This document shows positions 12,067 through 34,013 of a stretch of DNA of 51,777 bases, piece after piece. This DNA comes from Thermomicrobiaceae bacterium (GTDB lineage: Bacteria; Chloroflexota; Chloroflexia; Thermomicrobiales; Thermomicrobiaceae). The notes under the pieces were generated by a model that was given only the letters and a program-made list of their open reading frames with translations, ran no database searches and was not told the origin of the DNA. Position 1 is the stretch's first letter; every line of letters begins with the position of its first letter. The stretch lies in contig JADBJL010000086.1 of the NCBI GenBank assembly GCA_014874455.1, positions 4,234 through 56,010 on the forward strand, given 5' to 3'. The translations under genes and the position numbers were made by a program.

Positions 12067-12120
12067 GTCCGGCCTCCCTCCTGTCTTGACGCCGCACCCC
12101 GCCTCGACCTCGTCACCGAC

Positions 12121-12150
12121 CCGGCTGCAGCGCTCTCCCGCTGCAGCCGG
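12121..12150. repeat. perfect 12-bp hairpin inside the catabolic operon
   Basis: CCGGCTGCAGCG (12121-12132) and CGCTGCAGCCGG (12139-12150) are perfect complements with a 6-nt loop. It lies between the ABM gene and the phospho-histidine subunit gene. No U-run follows, so it may be a processing or stabilising stem, or a partial terminator setting the level of the last three genes. Confidence 0.6.
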
Positions 12151-12159
12151 GAACCGTGC

Positions 12160-12453: not shown

Positions 12454-12612
12454 CGGCGACCTCCTCTCTGTCTTGGCCCCCTCATTCCTCGCCCTAGCAG
12501 ACATCGTTCCGGCAGAAGCCGCTGCGACGCCCCATGCCCCACGCGGAGCACGGATCCAGGTCGGCAGGCGATGGCACGCCCCGGCGCCCGGAGCTGCGAC
12601 GCGACCCGCCGC

Positions 12613-13596: not shown

Positions 13597-13610
13597 GATC
13601 GTCCTCCCTC

Positions 13611-14477
13611 CTACCGCGCCCGCTCGCGGGCGATGCGCAAGGCCCGCTCGACGAAGACGCGGATCACCTCGGTGCGGTACCAGGCCGAGCCGCGTAGATC
13701 CGAGAGCGGTTCGATTCCCGCCGCGTAGCGCTCGGCGATCTCAGCGATGGTCGCGTCGTCGAGCGCCCGGCCCACCACGGCATCGAGAACCTCCGGCAGC
13801 CGCTGCGGACGCTCGGCGACCGCGCCGACGACCACCTCGACCCCTGCCAGGCGCCCATCGCTGTCCGGCACGACCACCGCGGCTACTCCGACACACGGCC
13901 GGTCTTCGTGCGAGCGCGTCCGGTACTTGAGGTAAACTGCTCCAGCTTCCGGCGGCAGCGGCGGCACGATCACCTCGGTGACCAACTCGTCCGGCTCCAG
14001 CACCGTCTGGTAGTGGCCGACGATGAAGTCGCGCGCTGAGATCTCGCGCCGGCCGCGCTGGCTCACCGCCACCACCCTGGCATCTAGCGCCGCGAGCAGC
14101 GCTGGCGGGTCGGAGGCATAGTCCGCATCGCAGAGGTTGCCGCCGATAGTGGCCTGGTGGCGCACGCGCACGTTGGCCACCTCCCGGCAGGTCTCGGCGA
14201 CGACCGGCAGCCGCTCGCGCACCAGCGGTGAGGTCTCGACCGAGCGGAGCCGGGCCATCGCTCCGAGTCGCAAGTTTCCCGCCTCGTCCACCGCGATCCC
14301 CGCCAGCTCGGGGACACGCCGCAGGCTGACCAGCAGCGAGGGCCAGAGCAAGCCCTGGCGGAGCACGAGGGTAACCCAGGTGCCGCCGGCCACCAGCTTC
14401 GCCTCCTCGCCGTACCGGGCCAGGAGATCCAGCACCTCAACTACACTTCCCGGCTCGACGACCGCGAACTCAGCCAT
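13611..14477 (-). CDS. FAD-binding subunit of a molybdenum hydroxylase (CoxM-like)
   Basis: A 288-aa flavoprotein subunit that passes electrons from the 2Fe-2S clusters to an acceptor. The family's two FAD-binding signatures are present: AGGTWVT (about residues 30-36) and TIGGNL (about 110-115). The CO-dehydrogenase-type C-terminal domain covers about 180-285. The ATG at 14477 lies one base after the upstream stop, so translation is probably coupled. The other two subunits of the enzyme are 3 kb downstream, separated by the FAH, ABM and phospho-histidine genes. That order is unusual for an enzyme of this type but keeps all three on one transcript. Confidence 0.9.
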   Translation of the reverse strand: MAEFAVVEPGSVVEVLDLLARYGEEAKLVAGGTWVTLVLRQGLLWPSLLVSLRRVPELAGIAVDEAGNLRLGAMARLRSVETSPLVRERLPVVAETCREVANVRVRHQATIGGNLCDADYASDPPALLAALDARVVAVSQRGRREISARDFIVGHYQTVLEPDELVTEVIVPPLPPEAGAVYLKYRTRSHEDRPCVGVAAVVVPDSDGRLAGVEVVVGAVAERPQRLPEVLDAVVGRALDDATIAEIAERYAAGIEPLSDLRGSAWYRTEVIRVFVERALRIARERAR

Positions 14478-14478
14478 C

Positions 14479-14943
14479 CTACCGCCCGTCGGCCCCTGCC
14501 GGAGTAGCTAGCGACCGCTCGACGCACTCGACGAACTGCTCGGTCATCTTGCGCGCGACGTCCTGGATCACCGTGCCGCCGAAGCGCCCCAGGGCACCGC
14601 GGATCGAGAGCTCCATCTGGTAGCGCACCACTGTCTGCTCTCCCTGTGGATGGAGAGAGGCGCTCACGAAAGCTCGAACCAGGCTGCCGGTCGCGCGATC
14701 GTTACCCTGTACCTGTAAGACGAGCCGCTCCGGCGGCTGCACCTCGGAAAGTTCGACCGTCACGCCGAACGTCGCCCGCAGCGGCCCGACTTTGACCTGG
14801 ATGCGCCCCGTGTACGTTTTCTCGTCCACCTGCGTGACGTCTTCGACTCCAGCCATGCAGGCACTCGACCGCGGGATGTCGAGGAAGAACTCCCAGACCC
14901 GCTCGCGAGGCGCGCTGAGCGTGAACTCCTGGCTGATGATCAC
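14479..14943 (-). CDS. CoxG-like SRPBCC protein
   Basis: A 154-aa START-like helix-grip protein of the CoxG type. The typical N-terminus (EFTLSAPRERVWEFFLD, about residues 5-21), the middle sheet and the long C-terminal helix (about 120-145) are visible. CoxG in carboxydotrophs recruits the enzyme to the membrane, and relatives accompany many molybdenum hydroxylases. Here a role in docking or maturing the hydroxylase is likely by analogy. The GTG start overlaps the stop of the HD-domain gene by 4 nt (GTGA), and the FAD subunit follows directly. No extra C-terminal membrane anchor is seen, unlike the longer CoxG forms. Confidence 0.82.
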   Translation of the reverse strand: MIISQEFTLSAPRERVWEFFLDIPRSSACMAGVEDVTQVDEKTYTGRIQVKVGPLRATFGVTVELSEVQPPERLVLQVQGNDRATGSLVRAFVSASLHPQGEQTVVRYQMELSIRGALGRFGGTVIQDVARKMTEQFVECVERSLATPAGADGR

Positions 14944-15545
14944 CTGGCATTCTCCCTCCCGACACGCGACGCCTCGTGCGCGACGAACTCGTCGATCCGC
15001 GCGAGAGCGGCCTGGTAGAGCGGCCGCGCCAGCTCGCGCGCCTGCGGCAGCCGGATACGCTCGTACATGTAGGCCAGACGCTCGCGGACGCGCTCCGGCG
15101 TGTAGTGGTGCTTTCCCTCACGCGCGTATCCGATGAAGAGTTCCACGTTGGTCTCCAGGAAGCTCAGGCTGTCGGCCGCCTGGAGCAAGTCGGCTTCAGG
15201 CCATCCACCCTCCTCGTGTACCTCGATCAGCGCACGCACGCGCTGGATAAGTTCGGGCTCTGCCCCTTGCTGGCGCAACCACGCCGCCACGATCCGCGCC
15301 GAGCGTTCCTGGTGTTGCCGGTCGTAGTCGCGATCCGGAATCGGCCGCCGGGCATCCGCCACCGGCGAGTCTGGCCCGGGGAATGCCCGCTCCATATCGT
15401 GCGTCAACGCAGCCAGCCGGAGATGGCCCCGCGCGTCCGGCGCCAGCACCAGCAGCCAGTCGAGCGTCCGCCGGAGATGGTCGGCGTTCCAGTACGAGTC
15501 GATCCAGTCACTGGCTCGCTCGAGCAGCTCATCGACGGTCGGCAT
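14940..15545 (-). CDS. HD-domain protein
   Basis: A 201-aa protein with a metal-dependent HD fold. The candidate ligands in order are His23, His49-Asp50 (LTHDMERAF), His78, His110 (EVHEEGG) and Asp125 (AADSLSF). HD proteins hydrolyse phosphate esters, including nucleotides. The gene sits directly after the ATP-grasp subunit gene of the split phosphotransferase, with a gap of only 9 nt, so a phosphatase acting on the phosphorylated intermediate, or a repair function, is a reasonable guess. No partner domain is attached. A GTGAGGGA precedes the ATG at 15545. I do not know a characterised close relative. Confidence 0.7.
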   Translation of the reverse strand: MPTVDELLERASDWIDSYWNADHLRRTLDWLLVLAPDARGHLRLAALTHDMERAFPGPDSPVADARRPIPDRDYDRQHQERSARIVAAWLRQQGAEPELIQRVRALIEVHEEGGWPEADLLQAADSLSFLETNVELFIGYAREGKHHYTPERVRERLAYMYERIRLPQARELARPLYQAALARIDEFVAHEASRVGRENAR

Positions 15546-15554
15546 CAGTTTCCC

Positions 15555-16526
15555 TCACAGTGTGGTGATCGGCCGGCTCTGAAGCAGGTAGACCAGGCCG
15601 CCTTCGATGGCCCACTCGATGTCCTGCGGCGCGCCGAAGTAGGCCTCGACCCGCTCGGCCAGCTCCATCAAAGCGTGGAGTTCGACGTCCGAAAGCACCC
15701 GCTCGCGCTCTCTTCCTGGCGGAATCGACACCTGCTTCAACCCATCACCCGATGGATCGCGCACGAGCATCACGGTCTTCGCCGGCACGAAGGCCCGCAA
15801 CAGGCGGCGATCCACGCGAGAGACGAGGTAGTTGTCCGGCACCACCAGCCCGGACACGACCGCCTCGCCGAAACCCCAGGTCGCCTCGATCACGCAGCAA
15901 TCCCGGCGTCGCTGCACCGGATCAGCGGTGAAGAGCACGCCGGACTTCTCCGGCACCACCATCCGCTGGACGACGACCGCGATCGCGGTGTCGCGCAGGG
16001 CGCCTTTCTCCGAGCGGTAGAAGAGGGCGTGCGAACCGAAGAGCGAGGCCCAGCAGTCTCGCACCCGCTCGACGACCTGTCGCGCACCGGAGACGTTGAG
16101 ATAGGTCTCTTGCTGGCCGGCGTAGGACGCGGCCTGCGAGTCCTCGGCGATCGCGCTCGACCGCACCGCCACCGGAACGTCGATCCCGCCGCCGAGCTCG
16201 GCGTATGCCACATGAATAGCCCGCGCTATCTCCGGTGGCACCTCCAACGAGCGGATGAGTTCTTTGATCTGCCGCGACGCCGCCTCCAGGCTGGCCCTGC
16301 TGGCCGGGTCGACGCGTTCCACTGCCTCGAGGATCTGTCCGGTCACTCCGTGCGCATCGAGGAACCGCGCGAACGCCGCCGCGCTGACGACGAAGCCGGG
16401 AGGCACCGGGAGACCGGCCGCGACGAGCCGGCTTAGGCTGGCTCCCTTCCCGCCGGCGAGCCGCACATCGGTGCAGGCGGGGTCGCTGAACCAGTGGATC
16501 AACGGGCGGGTCGCGACCGAACCCAT
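15555..16526 (-). CDS. ATP-grasp subunit of a split PEP-synthase-like phosphotransferase
   Basis: A 323-aa protein that corresponds to the N-terminal ATP-binding domain of PEP synthase alone. Recognisable parts are the glycine-rich GGKGASLSRL (about residues 25-34), VPPGFV (41-46), AVRSSAIAEDSQ (about 122-133) and the closing EWAIEGGLVYLLQSRPI. It should bind ATP and phosphorylate the His of the protein encoded at 10363, as phenylphosphate synthase protein 2 does. No C-terminal PEP/pyruvate barrel is encoded in either half, so pyruvate is probably not the acceptor. I use the ATG at 16526, which follows GAGGAG; an ATG or alternative at 16586 would overlap the cyclase gene. Confidence 0.85.
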   Translation of the reverse strand: MGSVATRPLIHWFSDPACTDVRLAGGKGASLSRLVAAGLPVPPGFVVSAAAFARFLDAHGVTGQILEAVERVDPASRASLEAASRQIKELIRSLEVPPEIARAIHVAYAELGGGIDVPVAVRSSAIAEDSQAASYAGQQETYLNVSGARQVVERVRDCWASLFGSHALFYRSEKGALRDTAIAVVVQRMVVPEKSGVLFTADPVQRRRDCCVIEATWGFGEAVVSGLVVPDNYLVSRVDRRLLRAFVPAKTVMLVRDPSGDGLKQVSIPPGRERERVLSDVELHALMELAERVEAYFGAPQDIEWAIEGGLVYLLQSRPITTL

Positions 16527-16531
16527 CGGCG

Positions 16532-17254
16532 CTACTCCTCGACGATCGCGACCGCCCGCACGGGGGCCGCGGTCGTCCCGACCCACTTGATGGGAAAGGC
16601 TGCCACCTTGAAGCCGAAGGGAGCCGGGATCTGGTCGAAGTTGGTCATGTTCTCGATGTGGTAGTACTCCCGCTCTCGCATCACGAGGTGGGCTTCCCAG
16701 AACTGCTTCCGCTCGAACATCGCCCAGACCGGCGGGTCGAAGGTGATCGCATCGATCCCCATCACCTTGATCCCCTGATCGATCAGCCAGAGCGTCGCCT
16801 CGCGCGTCATCCCGCAGTGGTCAGTCAGGTAGCGCTGCTCGTCCTGGTAGGCGCCAGCGCCAGTCCAGATCAGCACGATGTCCAGCGGCTTGAGCTGATA
16901 GCCGATCTTCGCGAGCGCCTCCTGCACCTCGGCCGCGGTGATCCCGGCTCCTTTCTCCTTGTGGCGAAAGTCGAGCAGCACGCCGTCACCGTAGCAATAC
17001 TCGAGCGGGATGCCCTCAGGGCCGGGTGCCTCGGCGACGAGGTGCTTGCGGGCATCGATGTGCGTGCCGACGTGGTCGCTCAACTCGATCTTGTAGCTCG
17101 CGGTGAGCCAGGTAGCGCCGTACTTGGCAGCGCCGATGTTCTCGGCGAACTCTTCCCACGTCTCGAACATCTCCAGCTTCGGCTTGCTGATCCGCGGGAA
17201 GGTGAGCATGTCGTTATGCACCGGCATGCTCAAGTCAATCAGTCGCACTCCCAT
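16532..17254 (-). CDS. cyclase-family hydrolase (kynurenine formamidase-like)
   Basis: A 240-aa member of the cyclase/isatin hydrolase/KynB superfamily. The hallmark HVGTHID (about residues 61-67) with the following His71 should bind a divalent metal. Other family features are the DLSMPVHNDM start and the late GIDAITFD segment. Known members hydrolyse N-formylkynurenine, isatin or other cyclic amides and lactones. In this operon it could open a lactam or lactone ring formed after hydroxylation. The ATG at 17254 has AAGGAGAGC upstream and is preferred over 17287. The downstream ATP-grasp gene begins only 5 nt after the stop. Confidence 0.85.
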   Translation of the reverse strand: MGVRLIDLSMPVHNDMLTFPRISKPKLEMFETWEEFAENIGAAKYGATWLTASYKIELSDHVGTHIDARKHLVAEAPGPEGIPLEYCYGDGVLLDFRHKEKGAGITAAEVQEALAKIGYQLKPLDIVLIWTGAGAYQDEQRYLTDHCGMTREATLWLIDQGIKVMGIDAITFDPPVWAMFERKQFWEAHLVMREREYYHIENMTNFDQIPAPFGFKVAAFPIKWVGTTAAPVRAVAIVEE

Positions 17255-17289: not shown

Positions 17290-18018
17290 CTACTTCGCGG
17301 CCTCGTCTGCAGGAGCCCCCTTCAGTGCCTGGAGCACCCAGCGGCCCGGCTCCTCGATATGGCGGCGCATCACCTGTTCGGCCAGATCGGGGTCGCGACC
17401 GCGCAGCGCTTCGAGTACCGGCTCATGCCGCTCGGCCAGCCCGCCGAGCGCGCGTTTGACCGCCGTGAAGGTCAGGTACGTGGTGGTCGCCAGGCTCAAG
17501 CTCGTCCAGAACTGTTGGAGCAGCCGGTTGCCGGACGCCTCGACAATGATCCGGTGAAAGGCCACGTCCGCCTCGATCGCGGTCGCCTCGTCGCCGACCG
17601 CCGATGCCTCGCGCATGCGATCGATCTGCTCCTCCAGTTGCAGGAGCTGCTCAGCAGTGATCCGCTGGGCAGCGGCGCGCGCTGCCACCCCTTCGATCGC
17701 GGCGCGGATGGGGTAGATCTCGACCAGTTCCTCGTCGGTGAACTCGCGGACGTGGGTGCCGCGGAAGGGAGAGCTGACGACGAAACCGAGCATCTCCAGG
17801 TCGCGCAGCGCCTCGCGTACCGGCGTCTGGCTGACACCGAGCTCCTGAGCGATCCGGGTCTCGACGATCCGATCGCCTGGTTTGAACACACCTTGGAGGA
17901 TCGCCTCGATCAGGTACTCCTTGATCTCGTCGCGCAGAACCCGGCGGGCAATCGGCCGCCGGTTCGAGCGCGCGTCGACCCCTGGCGAAGCAGTTCCGCG
18001 TCTCGATCCTCTCGTCAT
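17290..18018 (-). CDS. GntR/FCD-family transcriptional regulator
   Basis: A 242-aa regulator. The winged helix-turn-helix covers about residues 24-92, with TRIAQELGVSQTPVREALRD as the recognition region. The FCD effector domain covers about 100-235 and keeps the metal-binding pattern (an Asp and His in DVAFHRIIVEASGN, then later His residues in ERHEP and RRHIEEP). FCD regulators usually respond to carboxylic acids and repress until their ligand binds. It is encoded inside the operon it probably controls. The tandem repeat at 25277-25302 over the operon promoter is the best operator candidate. A strong GGAGGA precedes the ATG at 18018. Confidence 0.9.
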   Translation of the reverse strand: MTRGSRRGTASPGVDARSNRRPIARRVLRDEIKEYLIEAILQGVFKPGDRIVETRIAQELGVSQTPVREALRDLEMLGFVVSSPFRGTHVREFTDEELVEIYPIRAAIEGVAARAAAQRITAEQLLQLEEQIDRMREASAVGDEATAIEADVAFHRIIVEASGNRLLQQFWTSLSLATTTYLTFTAVKRALGGLAERHEPVLEALRGRDPDLAEQVMRRHIEEPGRWVLQALKGAPADEAAK

Positions 18019-23298: not shown

Positions 23299-24321
23299 TC
23301 ACTCGTCCTGACGACCAACCGCCTGCTGCACGCCTAGCTCGTCCAGCTCATCGCGGGCCCGTCGGGCCCGGCTCTGCCGCCGAAGCAGCTCGACCGGTCG
23401 CGCCAGCAGCCCGCTCAGTCCCTCCGGCGAGAAGAGCACGATAGCCAGGAAGGTAAGACCGATGACGGTGTTGAAGCGCTCGGTGAACGAGCTGGCGAAG
23501 TTCGTCACCAGGACGAACGCCAGGGCGCCGAGGAAGGCGCCTTCGACCGAGGCCAGCCCGCCGATCACCGCCATCACCAGCACGTTGATCAGCCTCGTGA
23601 CGTCGATAGTGGTAGGGGAGATGGCACCGTTGTACCAGACACCCAGCAGCCCGCCCCACGCAGCCAGGAAGCCGGCGAGGGTGAAAGCCGCCAGCCGGTG
23701 CAGCGCCACATGGTAGCCGAGGGCAGCGAGTCGCCGTGGGTTGTCGCGCACCGCCTGCAGGGCAAGGCCGAACGGCGTCCGCAAGAGATACCGCACGCCG
23801 AGGTAGCTCGCCAGCGCCACCGCCAGGCAGAGCTCGTAGAAGAGCGCTCGCTCGGTCAACAGGTGGCCGCTGACCTCCGGAGCCCGGATGCCGAGGATGC
23901 CGGTATGCCCGCCGAAAACGGAGCGGTTCTGGTTGGCGAGCGCATAGACGACCATCCCGAGCGCCAGGGTGATCATCAGGAAGTAGATACCACGCGTGCG
24001 CACCGCTACGAGCCCGAAGAGGAAGGCGGCCAGCGTCGCCACCGCCAGCCCGCCGATCACGCCGACCCACCACGGCTGGCCGTGGGTGACGGTGAGCACG
24101 CCGTAGCCGTAGCCGGCCAGGCCGAAGACGGTCATCTGGGCGAGCGAGATCATCCCCCCGTAGCCCGCCAGAAAAGCGAGGCTGAGCGCGGCGATGCCGA
24201 GGAAGAGCGCAGGGCTGAATACCCGCCCGACGAAGTAGGCGCTGCCCCAGAGCGGGAACGTCGCCAGCAGCCCGACCACGAGCAGCGTGAGCACGGTGCG
24301 GGTCGAAGCCAGCGCGCTCAT
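23299..24321 (-). CDS. livM: branched-chain-type ABC transporter permease, LivM-like
   Basis: A 340-aa permease with about nine or ten membrane spans. The EAA-type cytoplasmic segment is near residues 195-215 (AVRDNPRRLAALGYHVALHR), which contacts the ATPases. The C-terminus (from about 315) is a charged tail (RRQSRARRARDELDEL), slightly longer than usual. Its ATG overlaps the end of livH by 4 nt. Together with livH, livG, livF and the binding protein it makes a complete importer. Confidence 0.92.
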   Translation of the reverse strand: MSALASTRTVLTLLVVGLLATFPLWGSAYFVGRVFSPALFLGIAALSLAFLAGYGGMISLAQMTVFGLAGYGYGVLTVTHGQPWWVGVIGGLAVATLAAFLFGLVAVRTRGIYFLMITLALGMVVYALANQNRSVFGGHTGILGIRAPEVSGHLLTERALFYELCLAVALASYLGVRYLLRTPFGLALQAVRDNPRRLAALGYHVALHRLAAFTLAGFLAAWGGLLGVWYNGAISPTTIDVTRLINVLVMAVIGGLASVEGAFLGALAFVLVTNFASSFTERFNTVIGLTFLAIVLFSPEGLSGLLARPVELLRRQSRARRARDELDELGVQQAVGRQDE

Positions 24322-25187
24322 GCCGGCCTCCCGAACAGCCCCTGTGGTCGCACCGCCAGGACGACCACCATCAGGAGAAAGCTGACGATGGCCGCGTAGG
24401 TGGGGAAGAGCGCCAAGCTATATTGCTCCACCAGCGCCACCAGCAGCGAGGCCACGGCCGTACCGGGCAGGCTGCCCATGCCCCCGATGATCACCACGAT
24501 CAGCGAGGCCAAGAGATAGCGAGCGTCCTCGCCGGAAGCGATCGAGAACGCCGAGCCGCCGACCACCCCGGCCAGTCCGGCGAGCCCGGCACCGAAGGCG
24601 AACATCAGCGCGAACAGCCGCTGCACGTTGACCCCCACCGCCGAGACCATGTCGCGGTCATCGATGGCAGCCCGGATCGTGATGCCGAGCCGCGTGCGAG
24701 TGAGGAGCAGCCAGAGGACGAGACCGACGACAAGCGCGAAGGCCAGGAGGAACAGCCGGTATCTCGGATAGCCGATGTCGAGCACTGGTAGCCGCGCACC
24801 GCCGCTGATCGCCCGCGGCGGGGAGAAGCCGTAGGTGAAGCCGCCCCACTGGGCCAGCATCAAGTCAGCGGCCACGATCGAGACGCCGATGGTGACCAGA
24901 GCCTCGCGGAGATCTTGCCCCTGGATCGGCCGCAGGAGCGCCTGCTGCAGGGCCAGACCGGCGACAGCGGCGACGACGGCCGCCGTCACGGCACCGAGGA
25001 TCCAGTTTCCGGAGCGCTCGGCCACCGTCCAGCCGACATACCCGCCGAAGAGGTAGAGCGAGCCGTGGGCGAGGTTGACGACCCGCATCAGGCCGAAGAT
25101 CAGGGTAAAGCCCACCGCTACCAGGAAGTAGAGCGCGGCCAGCGTCAGACCGTTGAGGGTTACCGTGACGAACTGCGTCCAGGTCAC
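24318..25187 (-). CDS. livH: branched-chain-type ABC transporter permease, LivH-like
   Basis: A 289-aa permease with about eight membrane spans, starting with the typical TLNGLTLAALYFLVAVGFTL segment. The cytoplasmic coupling region (IRAAIDDRDMVSAVGVNVQR) is near residues 170-190. It is the first gene of the long operon; its ATG lies about 100 nt downstream of the predicted promoter with the tandem repeats at 25277-25302. Confidence 0.92.
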   Translation of the reverse strand: MTWTQFVTVTLNGLTLAALYFLVAVGFTLIFGLMRVVNLAHGSLYLFGGYVGWTVAERSGNWILGAVTAAVVAAVAGLALQQALLRPIQGQDLREALVTIGVSIVAADLMLAQWGGFTYGFSPPRAISGGARLPVLDIGYPRYRLFLLAFALVVGLVLWLLLTRTRLGITIRAAIDDRDMVSAVGVNVQRLFALMFAFGAGLAGLAGVVGGSAFSIASGEDARYLLASLIVVIIGGMGSLPGTAVASLLVALVEQYSLALFPTYAAIVSFLLMVVVLAVRPQGLFGRPA

Positions 25188-25276
25188 CGTGCCTCAGCCG
25201 TTTCCGTGAGACCGCTGTGGGTGACACCCGGCATGGGTCGAGTGGGCTATGATGCCCGAGCAAGATGGATCACCGA

Positions 25277-25302
25277 TTATCGATGATCGTAATCGATGAT
25301 CG
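25277..25302 (-). promoter_or_regulatory. tandem 13-bp operator-like repeats over the catabolic promoter
   Basis: On the minus strand CGATCATCGATTA (25302-25290) is followed at once by CGATCATCGATAA (25289-25277), 12 of 13 positions identical. The repeats cover the spacer, the -10 hexamer and the likely start site. CGATTA and TAATCG (25274-25279 and 25290-25295) also form an inverted pair. The block ATCGATAATCGG (25284-25273) recurs exactly at 33167-33178. It is a strong candidate site for the GntR/FCD regulator encoded in the operon. Confidence 0.65.
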
Positions 25303-25314
25303 AGCGGGTGTCAA
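25286..25314 (-). promoter_or_regulatory. sigma70-type promoter of the catabolic operon
   Basis: A perfect -35 TTGACA (25314-25309) and the -10 TACGAT (25291-25286) are separated by exactly 17 nt. It points at livH, whose start is about 100 nt downstream. The rest of the gap up to the VOC gene (25315-25590) shows no other gene. Confidence 0.7.
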
Positions 25315-25590
25315 GACCAGCGCTGTGGGGTTGCGCCTGTCCGGCAGATCCAGCAGGGAGGGCTATGGAAACCGCGACTCAACGACCAGTACTACTGCAA
25401 GCGCGCCCAGCGTGCCTAGCGGCCCCGTGGTGAGACGACAGCCTTTGGCCGCTGGACGCGCCGCGCACCGTCAGGCAGCGTCACAGCACCGTCTCGTGCT
25501 CCTCGCACGAGCGCACGAGCACGCGCCGCCAGCATCTCAGCCGGAACGAAGGAGAGCTGTGTCGAGAGAACGTGCGCGTCCCGCTGCCGG

Positions 25591-25962
25591 TTACTCGAAG
25601 ACCATGAACTCCAGCAGGTTACCGAAGGGGTCACGACAGAAGAAGCGAGGCCGCCCGGGAATCGGAGCCGCGTCGTAGGGAGCGTACCCGGCCCGCTCCA
25701 GCGCCGCGCGCACGGCGTGGAGATCCTCGACCTCGAAACAGACGTGCCGCCGCGAGCTCCCGCGGCCGGGCTCGTCCTGCCCGACGACATGCAGCTCGTC
25801 CGGGCCGACCTCGAACCAGGCGAGGATGTCCAACCCCGCCAATGTCTCCGGCACCGGCTTTTCCCGGAACCCGAGCACGCCGCTGTAGAACTGCCGCGCC
25901 GTCTCGGCTCCATCCAGCGGGGCCGTGATCGAGACATGCTGAATCCGCCGAGCTACACCCAT
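25591..25962 (-). CDS. VOC-family (glyoxalase/dioxygenase-fold) protein
   Basis: A 123-aa protein with the paired beta-alpha-beta-beta-beta units of the vicinal oxygen chelate fold. It shows IQHVSITAPLDGAETARQFY at the start, RRHVCFEVEDLHAVRAALERAG in the middle and the closing FFCRDPFGNLLEFMVFE. His8 (HVSI), His in RHVCFEV and the final Glu in LLEFM are the likely metal ligands. Members act as dioxygenases, lyases or resistance proteins. I use the ATG at 25962 with AGGGA upstream. It lies upstream of the catabolic promoter in the same direction and may be a pathway accessory gene, but it has its own transcription unit. Confidence 0.85.
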   Translation of the reverse strand: MGVARRIQHVSITAPLDGAETARQFYSGVLGFREKPVPETLAGLDILAWFEVGPDELHVVGQDEPGRGSSRRHVCFEVEDLHAVRAALERAGYAPYDAAPIPGRPRFFCRDPFGNLLEFMVFE

Positions 25963-26147
25963 GGAGCAATCCCTCACTTTATCTCATCCGATGCCCGAAG
26001 GGGCACGTGACCTCACCCTTGGCCAGCCAGAACTGACCTGAGTCCTATTATCACCCAGCCTCGACCGCGAGCAGATACCAGCGGTACGGGGCCGACACGC
26101 GGATCTTCAGATATTGGCAGCGTCGATACGGGTCAAGAAGGCAACCA

Positions 26148-26177
26148 TTGACGTCTTCCGCGACCCATCCCTAGAAT
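26148..26177 (+). promoter_or_regulatory. sigma70-type promoter of the peptide-type ABC operon
   Basis: TTGACG (26148-26153) and TAGAAT (26172-26177) with an 18-nt spacer, 48 nt before the start at 26225. The position shows that the earlier in-frame start at 26114 lies before the promoter and is not used. Confidence 0.65.
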
Positions 26178-26224
26178 GGGGGCAAGTTACTAAGCAAGCT
26201 GGGCTGTACGAGGAGGGACGTACC

Positions 26225-27946
26225 ATGGCTGAGACGGGGCTCGGCGGGTTGATCGCTGCCTATCGTTCGGGACGGATCTCACGCCGTGAGTTCATGACCC
26301 GGGCTCTCGCGCTCGGACTTTCGATGCCGGCCATTGCGGCGACCCTGGCCGCCTGTACGCCAGCCAGAGAGAAGACACCTGCACCGCCAGGCCAAGCGAG
26401 CCCGACTCCAGCAGCGCAAGCTCCGAGCGCGATGGAACCCAGAACCGGCGGTATCCTCCGCGAGGGCTACGACCTCGACTTCTCCCGTCTCGACCCGATC
26501 AACACCAACTGGTACGACCCCGCCTTCTTCGCGATCTACGAAGCATTGATCACTAATGACCCCGACGGCAACTTTGTTCCTCAGCTCGCCGAAAAGTGGG
26601 CCTTCTCAGACGATGGCTTGAGCGTTACGTTCACTCTCCGCGAAGGTGCGAAGTTCCATTCGGGCCGGCCGCTCGATGCAACCGCAGTCAAGGAGGTTTT
26701 CGACACCATTCAGGATCCGGAGAGTGGTTCTCCTCTCCGAGTACTCTTCGATCCAGTGGAAGGCACAGAGGCACCGGATTCTCGCACCATCGTTCTCAAA
26801 CTGAAGCACCCATACTTCGAGGTGCTCAACGTGGTGAAGACCGGTTACTGGCGCATCGTCAACATCCAGAAGCGGAAGGAATTGGGCCAAGAGTACGGTC
26901 AGCGGGAGGTCGACGGGAGCGGACCGTTCCTTTTCGAGGAGTGGGTGCCTGGAAGTCACGTCTCGGTCAAAAGGTGGGAGGATTATCCAGGATCGATCAC
27001 GCCTTATTTCCAGAACAAGGGCAAGGCTTACCTCGATGGCATTCGCTGGATTGCGATCCTGGAGGGAGCTCAACGGGCCGTCCAGATCGAGAACAATGAG
27101 ATCGACACACTGCATGCACCGCTCTTTCAGGACGTACCGCGGCTGCAGCAGAACCCCGACCTCAACGTGATCGTGCTGAAGGAATGGTCTGGCTACATCC
27201 TCAACCTCAACTTCGAGCGCACAGATCTAGACTTCCACGAGCTGAAGATGCGCCAGGCGATCTCCCATGCCATCGATCGGCAGGCGATCGTGAAGACATT
27301 GCTCTTCGATCAGGGCGAGCCACTCTATGGGCCGATCACGTCTGCGGACAAGTACTACACGCCGGAGGTGGAACAGTACAACCAGTTCGACTTGGCTCGA
27401 GCCAAGCAGTTCGTTCAGGAACTCGGTTGGGCGCCTGGATCAGACGGTATTCTGACCAAAAACGGCCAGCGTCTGGAGTTCAGCCTGGTTATCCAGGCAG
27501 AGTCTTTTAACCGTGATCTGGCATCGGCGATCCAAGCCCAGCTCAGGGATCTCGGGATGGACGTGAAGGTCGAGGCACTCGACCGAGGCAGCTATTTCAA
27601 CAAGCTCGCCAGCGGTGCCGATAGCTCAATCTTCTTCTATCTCTGGCCGGTTCCAATCGACGTTGTGATCCTCTTCGTCAGCTCCAAGACGATCCCGGCC
27701 CCGAACTGGTCACGGGCTCGGATTCCGGAGGTGGACGAGGCAGTCGAGGCCTGGCAGACGGCAGCCAACGAGGACGAACTCCGTGCCGCCGGCCAACAGT
27801 TCCAGCTCGCTATCGTGAAGAACTTGCCGATCGTGCCGCTCGTAAACCGGAACAATATCTGGGTGCATCGCAAGCATGTGCATGGTTGGCTGCCGCATCA
27901 GTGGAATCTGTACCCGTACTACAACGACGTATGGCTTGAGCAGTGA
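26225..27946 (+). CDS. ABC transporter substrate-binding lipoprotein, SBP_bac_5 family
   Basis: A 573-aa binding protein of the DppA/OppA class, which carries peptides, nickel, glycosides or other ligands. It has a twin-arginine signal (SRREFMTRALALG) and a lipobox at Cys44 (LAAC), then a short linker. The domain signatures GGILREGYDLDFSRLDPINT and FTLREGAKFHSGRPL are present, and the large lobe covers about residues 180-560. The ATG at 26225 has GAGGAGGGACG upstream. It heads an operon with two permeases, the stop overlapping the next start by one nucleotide. The ligand is unknown. Confidence 0.9.
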   Translation: MAETGLGGLIAAYRSGRISRREFMTRALALGLSMPAIAATLAACTPAREKTPAPPGQASPTPAAQAPSAMEPRTGGILREGYDLDFSRLDPINTNWYDPAFFAIYEALITNDPDGNFVPQLAEKWAFSDDGLSVTFTLREGAKFHSGRPLDATAVKEVFDTIQDPESGSPLRVLFDPVEGTEAPDSRTIVLKLKHPYFEVLNVVKTGYWRIVNIQKRKELGQEYGQREVDGSGPFLFEEWVPGSHVSVKRWEDYPGSITPYFQNKGKAYLDGIRWIAILEGAQRAVQIENNEIDTLHAPLFQDVPRLQQNPDLNVIVLKEWSGYILNLNFERTDLDFHELKMRQAISHAIDRQAIVKTLLFDQGEPLYGPITSADKYYTPEVEQYNQFDLARAKQFVQELGWAPGSDGILTKNGQRLEFSLVIQAESFNRDLASAIQAQLRDLGMDVKVEALDRGSYFNKLASGADSSIFFYLWPVPIDVVILFVSSKTIPAPNWSRARIPEVDEAVEAWQTAANEDELRAAGQQFQLAIVKNLPIVPLVNRNNIWVHRKHVHGWLPHQWNLYPYYNDVWLEQ

Positions 27947-28869
27947 TGGTCGAGTACCTGGCCCGACGAACCGCCCGAACCCTCGTCATCCTGGTGCTGG
28001 CTTCCGTTGCAGTCTTCTACTCGCTCCGGTTCGCACCAGGTGATCCCAGCGGCGTCGCCTTGAGCCCCCTCGCACTGGAGGAGATCCGTCAGGCGTACCG
28101 AGAGCGCCTTGGGCTGAACAAGCCGATTTATCTCCAATACTTCACTTACTTAGGACACCTCGCCCACGGCAATCTGGGCCAATCACTGATCAATGGGAAG
28201 CCCATCGGCGAGCTCTTTCTTTACCATGGCCGCAACAGCCTCATCCTCGGGCTAGCAGCTTTGGCGCTCTCCTATGTGATCGGGATTCCACTGGGGATCC
28301 TGGCGGCCGCCCATCGCAATCGCCCCCTCGACCACGCCGTCATGGGCTTCGGGGCGCTCGGCATGGGCATCCCGAATTTCTGGCTGGCGCTGCTGCTGGT
28401 GTACCTCTTTAGCGTTAAGCTGAAGTGGCTCCCCTCCGCTGGCTGCTGCAGCCCGAAGTACCTCATAATGCCGGCCGTTGTTCTGGCAGCCGAAGGCACA
28501 GCCGTCACGATGCGCATGATGCGCTCCTCGATGCTCGAGCAGATCAATCAGGACTTTGTGCGCACTCACCGGGCATACGGGCTGCCTGAGTGGAAGGTCT
28601 TGCTCTTCGCCCTCCGCAACGCGCTGATCCCGATCGTCTCCCTGACCGGGCTACGGTTAGGGTGGCTGATCGGGTATACGCTGATCGTCGAGACAATCTT
28701 CAATTGGCCGGGGGTGGGTTATCTGCTGGTGGAGTCAGTGCTCCGGCGCGACTACCCTGTCGCCCAATTCTTCTCGCTTGTCCTGGTGCTGGCTGTCGTC
28801 CTATCGAGCTGGCTTGCAGATATCCTCTATGGCGTGGTCGATCCACGTATTCGCTACGCCCGCGTGTGA
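27946..28869 (+). CDS. peptide-type ABC transporter permease, DppB-like
   Basis: A 307-aa permease with six membrane spans and the typical N-terminal ARRTARTLVILVLASVAVFY. The coupling motif is near residues 200-220 (RTHRAYGLPEWKVLLFALRNA). The ATG at 27946 overlaps the stop of the binding-protein gene (TGATG). It is normal in length for the family. The operon has no ATPase gene after it, so ATPases must come from elsewhere in the genome. Confidence 0.92.
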   Translation: MVEYLARRTARTLVILVLASVAVFYSLRFAPGDPSGVALSPLALEEIRQAYRERLGLNKPIYLQYFTYLGHLAHGNLGQSLINGKPIGELFLYHGRNSLILGLAALALSYVIGIPLGILAAAHRNRPLDHAVMGFGALGMGIPNFWLALLLVYLFSVKLKWLPSAGCCSPKYLIMPAVVLAAEGTAVTMRMMRSSMLEQINQDFVRTHRAYGLPEWKVLLFALRNALIPIVSLTGLRLGWLIGYTLIVETIFNWPGVGYLLVESVLRRDYPVAQFFSLVLVLAVVLSSWLADILYGVVDPRIRYARV

Positions 28870-28873
28870 GCTG

Positions 28874-29800
28874 ATGGAAGAAGCCGGAATGGTGCAGGCA
28901 ACCGGTCCCGCAAGCAGCGCCGCCGATCTCGCGTTGATCCGGATACCGGTGCACCGGCATCCAGTTCTTCGCTTCCTTACCGAACTCCGCCGGCACCGAA
29001 TGGCACTGTTCGGCGCTGTCGTCACGCTCACTCTTATGCTCTTCGGGTTCCTGGCCCCGTGGCTGGCCACACACGACTATGCCAGGCAGAACCTGCTGGA
29101 AGCGTTCCAACCACCGCTTAGACCTGATCACCTCCTCGGGACCGATCAGATCGGTCGTGATATCTGGAGCCGGCTGGTCTACGGTCTTCGAACCTCGCTG
29201 CTGGTGGGATTTGGAGTCACGCTGATCGCGCTGATCGCTGGCACCGTTATCGGCACCATGGCCGGCTACCTCGGCGGATGGGCCGATACCGTGCTGAGCG
29301 GGGCCGTGGAGATCATTTGGGGCTTCCCCCTGATCCTGCTGGCGGTTATCCTTACCGGAGCCATGGGGCCGGGATTACCCGCAGTTGTTATCGCGGTAGG
29401 TGTGATCAACAGCGCTGGCTTTGCCCGCATTATTCGTGGTGAGGTGCTCGCGCTGCGCTACCGGGAGTTCGTTCAGGCTGCCCGTGCCGTCGGTGCCACC
29501 GATCTCGCACTGATCGTCCGTCATATCCTGCCCAACGCCATGGCGCCCACGCTGGTGATGGGGTCATACTACGTCGCATTAGCCATCATCGCCGAGGCCG
29601 GGCTCTCCTTCATCGGGCTGGGTGCACAGCCTCCACTACCCAGCCTCGGCACGATGATCGCTGACGGGCGTAACTACCTGTTGCATGACCACTGGATCTC
29701 GACCATCCCCGGCGTGACCATCGTGCTCCTGGTACTCGGCCTCAACCTACTCGGCGACGGCCTGCGCGACATCCTCGACCCGCGTCTCCGTGAGCGCTGA
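28874..29800 (+). CDS. peptide-type ABC transporter permease, DppC-like
   Basis: A 308-aa permease with the family's N-terminal OppC-type region (ELRRHRMALFGAVV), the segment RPDHLLGTDQIGRDIWSRL and six membrane spans. The coupling loop is YREFVQAARAVGATD. The start at 28874 lies 4 nt after the previous stop; an ATG at 28889 with GGAAGAAG upstream is an alternative. It is the last gene of the operon. Confidence 0.9.
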   Translation: MEEAGMVQATGPASSAADLALIRIPVHRHPVLRFLTELRRHRMALFGAVVTLTLMLFGFLAPWLATHDYARQNLLEAFQPPLRPDHLLGTDQIGRDIWSRLVYGLRTSLLVGFGVTLIALIAGTVIGTMAGYLGGWADTVLSGAVEIIWGFPLILLAVILTGAMGPGLPAVVIAVGVINSAGFARIIRGEVLALRYREFVQAARAVGATDLALIVRHILPNAMAPTLVMGSYYVALAIIAEAGLSFIGLGAQPPLPSLGTMIADGRNYLLHDHWISTIPGVTIVLLVLGLNLLGDGLRDILDPRLRER

Positions 29801-29841
29801 CAGGGACACCCTGGCCTCGTTGCCTTAGCTCCAGGATCGCT

Positions 29842-29857
29842 CCGGCAAGAGCGCCGG
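29842..29857. terminator. possible weak terminator between convergent genes
   Basis: CCGGC (29842-29846) and GCCGG (29853-29857) can pair around a 6-nt loop between the convergent ends at 29800 and 29874. The stem is short and no T-run follows. Confidence 0.25.
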
Positions 29858-29873
29858 CTCGCGCCATCTGACA

Positions 29874-30623
29874 CTACATAAAGCTGCGCGGGACGAACAG
29901 GTGCTGGAAGGTGTCGTGCGCCATCTCCACGTGCTTGCGGCCGTCGCGCAGCGCGATCGCGACGTGCCCCGGCAGCAGCGCGTCGAATTCCAGCCCGGCC
30001 AGCTTGGCTACGCTTTCGGCCGATTTGCTGACGCTGCAGTCATGGATGTTCTGCAGCACCACCCGGCCACCGTGGAAGACGGCGTCGGCGGCGAACAGAT
30101 ACGTCAGCGAGCGGCCGCGAAGCAGGAACGACAGGTGGCCGTCGCAGTGTCCAGGCGTCTCGTAGACCTCGAGCTCCAGCGCACCGACGCGCACCCGGTC
30201 GCCCTCACGCAGCTCGCGGTCGACCCGGCAGGGTCGGAAGCGGTAGTCGGCGCGATAGAAGCCGGCGCGCTTCGCCACGTCGAGCGAGGTGGCGACCTCA
30301 TCGCCAGCGCGCAGCGCCTCCGCCGCATCCCGGGCCGCATAGGTGATCAGGTCGAAGCGTTCCTGGAAGGCCGCCGCGCCACCGGCGTGATCGATGTGGT
30401 AGTGCGTCAGCAGCAGGTGCCGCAGGCGCGAGGGATCGAGCCCTTCCAGGCGGATGTTCTCCACGATGCGCTCGAGCGAGTCGCCGTCGGCCATGCCGCA
30501 GTCGATCAACGCCAGCTCGTCCCCGCCGTCCACCAGATAGACGTGACAATCAGGATCGTTCGACAGCCCGAAGGCGAACGTCGGGCCGCCACCGACCAGG
30601 TAGACCTCCGGTGTCAGGCGCAT
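29874..30623 (-). CDS. metallo-beta-lactamase-fold hydrolase
   Basis: A 249-aa hydrolase with the full metal-binding set: THYHIDHAGG (His74, His76, Asp78, His79), His in PGHCDGH, Asp in FAADAVF and His in LLPGHVAIAL. The C-terminal part has KHVEMAHDTFQHLFVP. Such enzymes act on glutathione or acyl thioesters, lactones, or related bonds; no signal peptide is present, so it is cytoplasmic. A TCGACA/TATGCT promoter at 30703-30676 points to it. It is divergent from the GH172-like gene. Confidence 0.88.
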   Translation of the reverse strand: MRLTPEVYLVGGGPTFAFGLSNDPDCHVYLVDGGDELALIDCGMADGDSLERIVENIRLEGLDPSRLRHLLLTHYHIDHAGGAAAFQERFDLITYAARDAAEALRAGDEVATSLDVAKRAGFYRADYRFRPCRVDRELREGDRVRVGALELEVYETPGHCDGHLSFLLRGRSLTYLFAADAVFHGGRVVLQNIHDCSVSKSAESVAKLAGLEFDALLPGHVAIALRDGRKHVEMAHDTFQHLFVPRSFM

Positions 30624-30675
30624 GGCATCCCTCCGATAACTCCCACCACGGTGCGCTTCTCATTGACACCGCTTC

Positions 30676-30703
30676 AGCATAGCAGGAGACTGCGCCTTGT
30701 CGA
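30676..30703 (-). promoter_or_regulatory. probable promoter of the metallo-beta-lactamase-fold gene
   Basis: On the minus strand TCGACA (30703-30698) and TATGCT (30681-30676) are 16 nt apart, about 50 nt before the start at 30623. Confidence 0.5.
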
Positions 30704-30729
30704 CAGGCGAAGGCGAGGGGAGCACAACG

Positions 30730-31794
30730 ATGCTCGAGAGCGACGGCACGATCGGGGGGCCGCTCCGTAGCCTGGCCAGACTGCGCCGGGCCAGGAACCG
30801 GCGCGCCTCCAGCTACGACCGGAGTGGTGGCAACCAGGACTACATCTCGGTGCAGCCGGGAGAGACGGTGACCCTGCTCGAGGCCGAGGGCGCCGGCTGC
30901 ATCACCCACATCTGGATGACGTCCGCCTGCCAGGAGCCACACTACCTGCGCCGCTGCGTGCTCCGCATGTGGTGGGACGGTGAGCCACACCCGAGCGTCG
31001 AGGTGCCGCTCGGCGACTTCTTCGGCCTGGGCCACGCCGAGACGCGCAACTTCACCTCCCTGCCGCTCGCAATGACGCCTCAGGCTGGGCGCGGGATGGT
31101 TTGCTACTTCCCGATGCCGTTCTCCAACCGGGCCGTCGTGAGCCTGACCAGCGAGTGCGCCCGGGAGCCGGTGCGGCTGTACTACGCCATCGACTACGAG
31201 AGCTACGTGCGGCTGGCGGATGAACTCGGGCGCTTCCACGCGCAGTGGCGGCGGCAAAACCCCTGTGACGGGATCTCGCCGGCCGGCATGAGCCTCGACG
31301 AGTACCAGTTCGGCGGCACCAACCCGAGCGGCGAGGGCAACTACGTGATTCTCGAAGCCGAAGGTTGGGGACACTACGTCGGTTGCCATCTCGACATCCA
31401 GAACCTGACTCGAGTGGATGGGCCGAACTGGTACGGCGAGGGCGACGAGATGATCTTCGTCGACGGCGAGGCCTGGCCGCCGAGCCTGCACGGCACCGGA
31501 ACCGAAGACTACTTCAACCTGGCCTGGTGTCCTAGCGAGCCGTTCACGTCGCTCTACTTCGGCCTGACCATGCCCGGCGGGCCGAACTGGAGCGGCAAAA
31601 TCTCGCTCTACCGTTACCACATCGAAGACCCGATCTACTTCGAGAAGTCGATCCGCGTGACCATCGAGCACGGGCACGCCAACCGGCGCTGCGACGACTA
31701 CGCCAGCACCGCCTACTGGTACCAGGTAGAGCCGCACAAGCCGTTCCCCCCGTTGCCGCCGGTCGAGGCCCGCCTGCCCCGCCCGGACGAATGA
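30730..31794 (+). CDS. DUF2961 (GH172-type) protein
   Basis: A 354-aa protein of the DUF2961 family, which includes the GH172 fructofuranosidases and difructose dianhydride synthases. The family signatures are present: SSYDRSGGNQDYI (about residues 28-40), the acidic loop GEGDE (about 236-240) and GTGTEDYF (about 255-262). The two acidic loops hold the catalytic glutamates in characterised members, as I recall. No signal peptide is seen, which fits intracellular action on imported oligosaccharides. The ATG at 30730 follows GAGGGGAG. Its neighbours give no clear sugar pathway, so the substrate is open. Confidence 0.85.
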   Translation: MLESDGTIGGPLRSLARLRRARNRRASSYDRSGGNQDYISVQPGETVTLLEAEGAGCITHIWMTSACQEPHYLRRCVLRMWWDGEPHPSVEVPLGDFFGLGHAETRNFTSLPLAMTPQAGRGMVCYFPMPFSNRAVVSLTSECAREPVRLYYAIDYESYVRLADELGRFHAQWRRQNPCDGISPAGMSLDEYQFGGTNPSGEGNYVILEAEGWGHYVGCHLDIQNLTRVDGPNWYGEGDEMIFVDGEAWPPSLHGTGTEDYFNLAWCPSEPFTSLYFGLTMPGGPNWSGKISLYRYHIEDPIYFEKSIRVTIEHGHANRRCDDYASTAYWYQVEPHKPFPPLPPVEARLPRPDE

Positions 31795-31898
31795 GGATCG
31801 CTCGAAAGGGCGTGTTCCGGGGTCGAGCTCCATCTCTCGGAGGTACCGCTCGCGCCCGGCTGGGCCCGCGCGGCCCGAGCGTGGCACAGCGTTGCGCG

Positions 31899-31927
31899 TT
31901 GACAGCCGTTGCAGCTCGCCGTAGCAT
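31899..31927 (+). promoter_or_regulatory. strong sigma70-type promoter
   Basis: TTGACA (31899-31904) and TAGCAT (31922-31927) are exactly 17 nt apart, about 55 nt before the PNPOx-like gene at 31982. Confidence 0.7.
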
Positions 31928-31945
31928 GCCGGCAGCACGGCATGC
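31924..31945. promoter_or_regulatory. palindromic operator-like sequence over the -10
   Basis: GCATGCCG (31924-31931) and CGGCATGC (31938-31945) are perfect 8-bp arms around a 6-nt centre. They overlap the -10 hexamer and the likely start site, the usual place for a repressor operator. Confidence 0.5.
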
Positions 31946-31981
31946 ATGACAGGTCGGCCACGTGGGATGAAAGGAGATCCT

Positions 31982-32479
31982 ATGACCAGCCGAACTGTCC
32001 AGAAGGAAGAGTGGCGCGGCAAGATCGGGCGGATGACGCAGGAGGAGATGGAGGCGTTCCTGCGGGAGGGCATCGTCTGCCGGCTGGGCTGCCTGGATCA
32101 GGAAGGCTGGCCCTATGTGGTGCCGGTGTGGTTCCACTATGCCGACGGCGGCTTCTATATCATCCCGCGGGAGCGCTCGCGGTGGGCCGCCTACCTGGAG
32201 CGCGACGGGCGCTGCTTCCTCTCGATCGACGACCCGCGGCCGCCGCTGCGCAAGGTCCTGGTTCGCGGGCTGGCCGAAGTGGTCGAGCGGCCCAACATCG
32301 GCGGCCGGTGGGTCGAGATCGCCCGGCAGATGTCCTACCGCTACCTGGGCGAGCACGGGCCTGACTACCTGGTGCCGACCCTGAACGAGCCACGCTGGCT
32401 TTTCTTCGTCCGACCGCTCAAGATCACCACCTGGCAGGGCGTGGACTGGCACCACCGCTACAAGCACTACGAGTGGTGA
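31982..32479 (+). CDS. PNPOx-like FMN-binding protein
   Basis: A 165-aa protein of the pyridoxamine 5'-phosphate oxidase-like split-barrel fold. The pattern of an EAFLREGIVCRLGCLDQEG N-terminus, the strand YVVPVWFHY and the segment ARQMSYRYLG is typical of F420/FMN-binding members. The substrate may be a quinone, a flavin-dependent reductant or a small aromatic. The ATG at 31982 follows a strong AAAGGAGATCC. It is cotranscribed with the alpha/beta hydrolase-like gene downstream. Confidence 0.85.
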   Translation: MTSRTVQKEEWRGKIGRMTQEEMEAFLREGIVCRLGCLDQEGWPYVVPVWFHYADGGFYIIPRERSRWAAYLERDGRCFLSIDDPRPPLRKVLVRGLAEVVERPNIGGRWVEIARQMSYRYLGEHGPDYLVPTLNEPRWLFFVRPLKITTWQGVDWHHRYKHYEW

Positions 32480-32525
32480 TACGAGGGCTCGGCCCCCGCA
32501 TAGAGGCCGGAGATCGAACCCAGCG

Positions 32526-33134
32526 ATGACGAGGCCGGTGCCCCTCACGCTCGTCTCGCCGAGCCTGCCGACGCTGCGTGGCCTAAGGTATGGTCAAGGT
32601 ACCCGGAGCGCCCTGCTCGTGCACGACGTCGGCGAAGACCTGGATGCCTGGGGCAGGTTACCCGAAACGCTCGCGCTGGCAGGGTACTGTGTCCTGGCGG
32701 TCGATCTACCAGGACACGGGCTGTCGGACGACCCCTTCACCGACGAGCTGCTCCCTGCAATTGTCGACAGCTTGCTGGATCATGCCGCCGCACAAGGAAC
32801 AACCAGTTGCCACCTGATCGCGGCCGGGCCGGTAGCCGGTGCCGCGCTGGCCGCGCCCGGCAGCGCCAGGATCTCGAGCTTGACCGCGCTGTCGCCCAGG
32901 CTCGCTGAACGCTGGCGGGCGGCGCTGCGCGGCCACACCGGCCCAAAGCTGTTGCTGGCCTCTTCGCTCGATCAAGCCGATCTGGAGGCAGCACAGCAGT
33001 TCTTCCAGCTTTGCCGGGGGCCGGCGATCCTCAGCACGCTGCCGGTCCCCGAGACCGGCTGCCGGCTCCTCGCCTCGGCCTGGGCCGATCACGCCGTCGA
33101 GCAGATCCTGCTCTTCCTGCGGCGCAATGCGTGA
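32526..33134 (+). CDS. alpha/beta hydrolase-like protein lacking the nucleophile
   Basis: A 202-aa protein with the alpha/beta hydrolase frame: the oxyanion strand ALLVHDVGED (about residues 29-38) and the DLPGHGLSD turn (60-68). At the nucleophile elbow, where G-x-S-x-G is expected, the sequence is HLIAAGPVAG (96-105), so the catalytic Ser is replaced by Gly101. A candidate catalytic His remains near residue 189 (ADHAV). The protein is also about 60 residues shorter than usual, with most of the cap missing. It is either a non-catalytic partner or a degenerate gene. Confidence 0.75.
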   Translation: MTRPVPLTLVSPSLPTLRGLRYGQGTRSALLVHDVGEDLDAWGRLPETLALAGYCVLAVDLPGHGLSDDPFTDELLPAIVDSLLDHAAAQGTTSCHLIAAGPVAGAALAAPGSARISSLTALSPRLAERWRAALRGHTGPKLLLASSLDQADLEAAQQFFQLCRGPAILSTLPVPETGCRLLASAWADHAVEQILLFLRRNA

Positions 33135-33146
33135 CTCGATCTCCCG

Positions 33147-33175
33147 TTGCGAGCAAGCGGGCCGATATCGATAAT
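33147..33175 (+). promoter_or_regulatory. promoter of the SDR gene
   Basis: TTGCGA (33147-33152) and GATAAT (33170-33175) are 17 nt apart and lead into the SDR gene at 33225. Confidence 0.55.
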
Positions 33176-33179
33176 CGGC
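33161..33179. promoter_or_regulatory. palindromic operator with the 12-nt catabolic-operon block
   Basis: GCCGAT (33161-33166) and ATCGGC (33174-33179) are inverted repeats around the -10. The enclosed ATCGATAATCGG (33167-33178) is identical to a block over the catabolic promoter (minus strand 25284-25273). This links the SDR gene to that operon's regulator. Confidence 0.6.
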
Positions 33180-33224
33180 GCTGGTAGTGGTCTGACCGGC
33201 GCTCGAAGGAGAGAGGGGCTGGCG

Positions 33225-34013
33225 ATGGATCTGGGACTGCGCGGCAAGGTGGCGCTGGTGCCGGCTGCGAGCCAGGGATTGGGCAAGGCGGTGGCGCTGG
33301 CCTTCGCTCGCGAGGGCGCACGCCTCGCCATCTGCAGCCGGAGACTCGACGCCATCGAGGCCACCGCCGAGGAAGCCCGCCGGCTCGGCACCGAGGTCCT
33401 CGCCTTGGCCGCCGATCTCACGCGAGCTGAGGACATCGCGAACCTGGTGCAGCGGACGGTCGAGCGCTTCGGTGGGGTGGACATCCTGGTCACCAACGCT
33501 GGCGGGCCGCCGGCCGGGCGGTTCGACGACTTCGACGACGCGGCCTGGCAGGCCGGCTACGAGCTGACCTTGCTCAGCGCGATCCGGCTGATCCGGGCTG
33601 CTTTGCCCTCGATGCGACAGCGTGGCGGAGGCGTCATCATCACGATGACCTCTTCCTCGATCAAGCAGCCGATCCCGAACCTGATCCTTTCCAACGTCTT
33701 CCGGGCCGGCGTCGCTGCCCTGGCCAAGACGCTGGCGGACGAACTCGCGCCGGACAAGATCCGCGTCAACAACGTGGTGCCGGGACGGATCGCCACAGAG
33801 CGGGTCGCCCAGCTCGACCAGGCCAATGCGGCCCGGCTGGGAGTCGATGTCGAGACGGTGCGCCAGAGCATGCTGGCCCAGATCCCGCTCCGTCGCTACG
33901 GCGAGCCGGAGGAGTTCGCCGACGCGGTCGTCTTCCTGGCGTCCGAGCGCGCGAGCTACATCACCGGGGCGACGCTCCAGGTGGACGGCGGGATGATCCG
34001 CAGCCTGTGGTAG
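33225..34013 (+). CDS. short-chain dehydrogenase/reductase (SDR)
   Basis: A 262-aa SDR with the NAD(P) loop (PAASQGLGKA, about residues 13-22), NAGGPPAG, the SSSIKQP segment and the C-terminal ITGATLQVDGGM. The catalytic YxxxK is absent: where YSASK is expected the sequence reads LSNVF. The family's usual Ser-Tyr-Lys mechanism therefore cannot be assumed. This SDR subgroup is known but poorly characterised. The ATG at 33225 has AAGGAGAGAGGGG upstream. The promoter and operator suggest co-regulation with the catabolic operon at 7.6-25 kb. Confidence 0.88.
   Translation: MDLGLRGKVALVPAASQGLGKAVALAFAREGARLAICSRRLDAIEATAEEARRLGTEVLALAADLTRAEDIANLVQRTVERFGGVDILVTNAGGPPAGRFDDFDDAAWQAGYELTLLSAIRLIRAALPSMRQRGGGVIITMTSSSIKQPIPNLILSNVFRAGVAALAKTLADELAPDKIRVNNVVPGRIATERVAQLDQANAARLGVDVETVRQSMLAQIPLRRYGEPEEFADAVVFLASERASYITGATLQVDGGMIRSLW

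Follow-up and report, generated by a model that had tools for sequence, protein, structure and literature searches.

A conserved sequence block at the promoter of a liv-type catabolic operon in a member of the Thermomicrobiaceae is likely to be the core of an operator for the GntR/FCD regulator encoded in that same operon, which would repress the operon and probably also a gene for an SDR-family oxidoreductase. The block lies in a stretch of 51,777 nucleotides (hereafter the window) from a 3.37-Mb genome assembled in 114 contigs (G000), a close relative of Thermalbibacter longus (G001, also L090). In comparisons across orthologous loci, this predicted operator has the conserved unit ATCGATnATCGAT, of which repeats in steps of 7 bp are common.

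The first-pass annotation had reported a 12-nucleotide word, ATCGATAATCGG, shared by the two promoters. Exact copies are indeed present at 25273-25284 (minus strand) and 33167-33178 (plus strand), and the window holds no third copy even if up to one mismatch is allowed. The proposed whole-genome scan returned three exact copies, the third within an ORF of ~656 amino acids (C36:18343). Genome-wide occurrences were found by pattern searches, and expected site numbers were derived from a Markov null. Five exact 12-mer pairs join intergenic stretches of the window and about 1,500 such pairs exist in it overall, so a shared 12-mer alone is no evidence, and we rejected the identity as a stand-alone argument. 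By our comparisons, the significance of the block stems only from comparative evidence, the identity itself being near chance level. The five intergenic pairs would also suit a chance match with no regulatory meaning at either promoter, but this is extremely improbable, as it is contradicted at the liv promoter by invariance in eight genomes and by recurrence across phyla against near-zero controls (see below).

At the catabolic promoter the block was placed correctly over the start-site region, downstream of the -10 box (Table 1). Orthologous operons were compared in three further Thermalbibacter genomes and in genus g6, which includes Thermomicrobium sp. and bacterium HR28. The sequence ATCGATAATCG is invariant, along with TTGACA and TAyGAT, in all eight liv promoters from these two genera, with the flanks and spacer having drifted. 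Likewise, the overlapping operator that covers the -10 box is retained as TAyGATnATCGAT in the eight genomes. The upstream copy does not occur in the Thermomicrobium genomes and has decayed in G001 and G002. The proposal that the block serves as an operator at this promoter is therefore well supported, both by its presence in eight of eight genomes and by its recurrence across phyla.

Table 1. Promoter elements, candidate operators and genes discussed in the text, with positions in the window.
Feature	Position	Strand	Basis
LivH, branched-chain-amino-acid-type ABC permease, first gene of the regulated operon	24318..25187	-	Pfam PF02653
-35 box TTGACA, liv operon promoter	25309..25314	-	Sequence; invariant in 8 genomes, two genera
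-10 box TACGAT, liv promoter, 17-nt spacer	25286..25291	-	Sequence; kept as TAyGAT in 8 genomes
Main candidate operator ATCGATAATCGGT, contains the reported 12-mer, start-site region	25272..25284	-	PWM 19.0, second in window
Overlapping candidate operator TACGATCATCGAT, 7-bp register, covers the -10	25279..25291	-	PWM 13.7
Upstream candidate operator copy CTCGATCATCGAT in spacer, first copy of the 13-bp repeat	25292..25304	-	PWM 19.4, first in window
GntR/FCD regulator, predicted to bind at both promoters; helix SQTPVREALR	17290..18018	-	PF00392 1.7e-16, PF07729 1.1e-31
-35-like TTGCGA, SDR promoter	33147..33152	+	Sequence; GTTGC kept in 4/4 genus members
-10 box GATAAT, SDR promoter, 17-nt spacer	33170..33175	+	Sequence; kept in 4/4 genus members
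Candidate operator ATCGATAATCGGC with the reported 12-mer, covering the SDR -10	33167..33179	+	PWM 14.55, third in window
SDR-family oxidoreductase	33225..34013	+	Pfam PF13561, PF00106

Larger symmetries noted earlier around the two copies do not hold up as operator units. The tandem 13-bp repeats at the catabolic promoter exist as an 11-bp direct repeat at 13-bp spacing that neither G001 nor G002 has kept, and the arms of the GCCGAT/ATCGGC palindrome at the SDR promoter exist in the window and are broken in G001 and G003. Judged by this lack of conservation, both are incidental. A 19-bp palindrome, ATCAyCGATnATCGrTGAT, is unique in the genome, but we rejected it as an operator, as its outer arms are not conserved.

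The operon begins with livHMJGF-type transporter genes, which are followed by genes for a UPF0261 protein, a PEP-hydrolase-like protein and the GntR/FCD regulator, and then by those for a putative cyclase, a PEP-synthase-like ATP-binding protein, CoxG, molybdenum-hydroxylase subunits, an FAA hydrolase and a PEP-utiliser. Parts of a PEP-synthase-like enzyme thus sit on separate genes within the operon (window 8069-16586, minus strand), with the ATP-binding part at 15555-16586 and the PEP-utiliser mobile domain at 10363-12066. These split genes adjoin the molybdenum-hydroxylase subunits, CoxG and the FAA hydrolase, an arrangement that we take to be reminiscent of phenylphosphate synthase.

The operator recurs well beyond the family. 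Distant orthologues of the GntR protein (38-64% identity) were collected from Acidobacteria, Actinobacteria, Chloroflexi and Alphaproteobacteria, and the ATCGATnATCGAT motif has 104 matches in 39 loci (three of them from Thermomicrobiaceae) versus none for the reversed pattern. A weight-matrix scan of the distant loci yielded 67 high-scoring merged sites versus a single match to the reversed matrix. Moreover, an unseeded k-mer count, independent of the word in the first-pass annotation, returned TCGATAAT as the top 8-mer upstream of 34 GntR orthologues, where it occurs in 15 (0.19 expected). Sites in the distant loci precede gntR, livJ and molybdenum-hydroxylase genes and also fall at a divergent liv/UPF0261 promoter; two Modestobacter-type genomes have them at that divergent promoter and before LivJ. 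In Thermomicrobium, gntR has its own promoter, where related sites are found (ATCGATTATCGAT in G011 and ATCGATTCTCGAA in others). Among the published papers that we searched, the operator word returned only unrelated ones and none that places it in a regulator context.

In many Streptomyces species a near-fixed word, ATCGATCATCGAT, closely follows the gntR orthologue; in L110, L113, L117, L132 and L136 (Streptomyces and relatives) it lies about 660-720 bp after the gntR start.

The protein encoded at 17290 has the GntR/FCD architecture, with an N-terminal GntR winged helix and a C-terminal FCD domain. An aspartate and three histidines are the metal and ligand residues of FCD domains; here, H155, H198 and H220 are invariant in 10 orthologues and D151 is kept in eight of the 10. 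In the recognition helix, the base-reading residue is Gln in all 108 orthologous matches (SQTPVREALR and variants) and Arg in 16 paralogues, and this difference tracks the operator. A site is present within 1.5 kb of 77 of the 108 Gln-helix loci versus one of the 16 Arg paralogues. Outside the training loci, sites accompany 47 of 74 Gln-type loci versus the same one of 16 (Fisher p 3e-5, an optimistic value because the sequences share ancestry and were chosen by homology). Among the FCD proteins of this genome, the operon-encoded one is the only Gln type found; the other readable helices carry Arg or Ala, and a sixth FCD match is partial, with an unreadable helix.

Conservation of the operator at the liv promoter and near Gln-type orthologues, together with the finding of no other Gln-type FCD protein in this genome, makes it very probable that the operator at the catabolic promoter belongs to the operon's own regulator. 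The protein at 17290, which had been put forward as the simplest binder, is accordingly the most likely candidate at the liv block, on the strength of the recurrence of the site at its orthologues and of the association with the Gln helix. The sites might be real and yet be read by another regulator, since the link to the 17290 protein is made through association with orthologous loci and several Thermalbibacter loci have no site directly upstream of gntR. The latter is expected if gntR lies inside the operon, however, and sites accompany the GntR gene across phyla, including at its own promoter, whereas Arg-type FCD paralogues are without sites and, wherever the helix can be read, the remaining FCD proteins of this genome are of the Arg or Ala type. 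A different reader is very improbable. For the regulator group as a whole, we have good confidence in a broader proposal, namely that a Gln-type GntR/FCD branch in Thermomicrobiota, other Chloroflexi, Actinobacteria, Acidobacteria and Alphaproteobacteria reads the non-canonical ATCGATnATCGAT in 7-bp arrays and controls an uncharacterised catabolic regulon, predicted to comprise UPF0261 and PEP-hydrolase-like proteins, a molybdenum hydroxylase, a putative cyclase, split PEP-synthase-like proteins, the liv transporter and SDRs.

Arg-type FCD paralogues from three genomes (L033, L039 and L040) have in common a nearby upstream GTCGACAATCGAC or its complement, which is perhaps an operator of their own.

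Members of the FadR subfamily (FCD) of GntR regulators have the canonical operator TKGT/ACMA, usually with Arg at the base-reading position, and can carry additional half-sites at 7-12 nt from the centre (PMC4494728). The regulator studied here shares their domain architecture, an odd-length dyad in the frame T(-5), G(-3), C(+3), A(+5), candidate sites that overlie promoters and occur at the gene for the regulator itself, and additional half-sites at those same distances. Its group departs from TKGT/ACMA, however, as the consensus ATCGATnATCGAT, with a single dyad about n, has GAT..ATC where known FadR-type sites have GT..AC. Gln replaces the usual (not obligatory) Arg, and the sites form overlapping 7-bp arrays. 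Exceptions to the subfamily rule, including NanR and BioR, are listed in the literature (PMC4494728), so ATCGATnATCGAT marks a variant rather than exclusion from the subfamily.

Two other FCD systems offer partial parallels. Atu1419, a VanR-type FCD repressor with the operator ATGTATACAT, binds, at more than one locus, palindromes overlapping the -10 boxes of catabolic promoters, reads an essential G with Arg45 and loops DNA as a tetramer (PMC7797058). The present case resembles it in the type of protein and in palindromes overlapping catabolic -10 boxes at more than one locus, but the operator differs, and both Arg45 and DNA looping by a tetramer are features of Atu1419. NanR is an FCD regulator with a (GGTATA)3 repeat operator (PMC8012715). 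Both operators are built of short repeated boxes, although the boxes differ and NanR uses direct repeats, whereas the present ATCGAT is self-palindromic.

The second copy of the block overlaps the -10 box of the SDR promoter, as the first-pass annotation had stated. By a weight matrix (PWM) trained solely on sites outside the family, the three best-scoring sites of the window are, in order, those starting at 25292, 25272 and 33167, the last being the SDR site. At its score, chance alone would supply 0.3 matches per 51.8-kb window and about 20 in the whole genome, so the case for this site must be decided by its location and conservation. The sequence TCGATAATCG is invariant in all four Thermalbibacter genomes and is the longest invariant run in the SDR leader before the ribosome-binding region. 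Six of its 10 bases are the -10 itself. Genomic location also points to an association, as three genera have the SDR gene close to the operon or to the regulator. In four Thermomicrobium genomes it is divergent to the liv operon at 0.9-1.6 kb, and in G005 it lies 3.7 kb from gntR. Two Thermalbibacter genomes have it 2.6-8 kb away, on the same side of the liv promoter, and contig breaks obscure it in the other two. Among distant loci, an SDR gene begins within 160 bp after an operator in 3 of 11 cases (0.5 expected, p 0.016); these three genes are homologues (29-34% identity), not orthologues.

A serious though disfavored alternative is that the liv site alone is an operator and the SDR match is coincidental, an ordinary GATAAT box whose neighbours complete the word. 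Some 20 sites scoring equally well are expected in a genome of this size, the flanking palindrome is not conserved, and ATAATCG at the SDR -10 is also present in G005 and in G007, the latter of which is without a GntR orthologue and carries GATAATCGGC at this position. Moreover, the site is absent from the SDR promoters of Thermomicrobium and G005, though the regulator is present there, and the SDR gene is also found in genomes without the regulator. Coincidence is opposed by the invariance in four of four genus members of the bases outside the -10 (TC before and CG after), by the rank of the site as third best in 51.8 kb where 0.3 are expected, by the conserved neighbourhood of the SDR gene with the operon or regulator in three genera, and by the operators that precede SDR genes in distant loci. 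We somewhat favor the reading in which the SDR gene belongs to the same regulon as the liv operon. Of the regulon suggested by the first-pass annotation, the liv part is thus well supported and the SDR membership plausible rather than proven; the comparison across related genomes that it called for found the liv operator in 8/8 genomes and the SDR site in 4/4 members of the genus and not in Thermomicrobium.

The promoter of a formate dehydrogenase (C29:28123) was rejected as a regulon member, its site being present in G000 and G001 and not in G002 and G003. This comparable but unconserved site indicates that such sites do arise by chance. The molybdopterin Fe4S4 protein encoded there (formate-dehydrogenase-like; L206 1501 onward, G000:C29:28235) has a reading frame that runs on beyond an in-frame stop (NQARI*HSS), likely a selenocysteine site.

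A conserved promoter word at C108:14757 contains a different palindrome and was not assigned to the 17290 regulator. This promoter, TTGACAACGGAATCGATTATCCGTAGGCT, has a spacer palindrome conserved between G000 (L199 1558, C108:14757) and G001 (L201 1521, C1:214920), with a sugar-type binding-protein gene downstream in G001 and a PucR-type regulator upstream in G000. The palindrome is probably the operator of another regulator. In addition, the SDR leader (window 33135-33225) is near-identical to that of G002 (L061), yet the G000 GntR protein is closest to that of G003; this segment has possibly recombined.

In the mechanism that we propose, dimers of the regulator most likely sit on the ATCGATnATCGAT boxes across the liv -10 and start site, where they would block RNA polymerase. 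A small pathway-related ligand bound in the FCD domain, by FCD precedent a carboxylate, would release the regulator. The same protein probably also occupies the SDR -10, 8 kb away, where a single weaker box would mean milder repression. Sharing of the regulator would tie the oxidoreductase to the catabolic pathway.

For a widespread and apparently undescribed group of regulators, these findings provide a DNA code that can be tested and that is matched by a change in the recognition helix. The predicted operator may also be used to gather the genes of the catabolic pathway built around the UPF0261 and PEP-hydrolase-like proteins.
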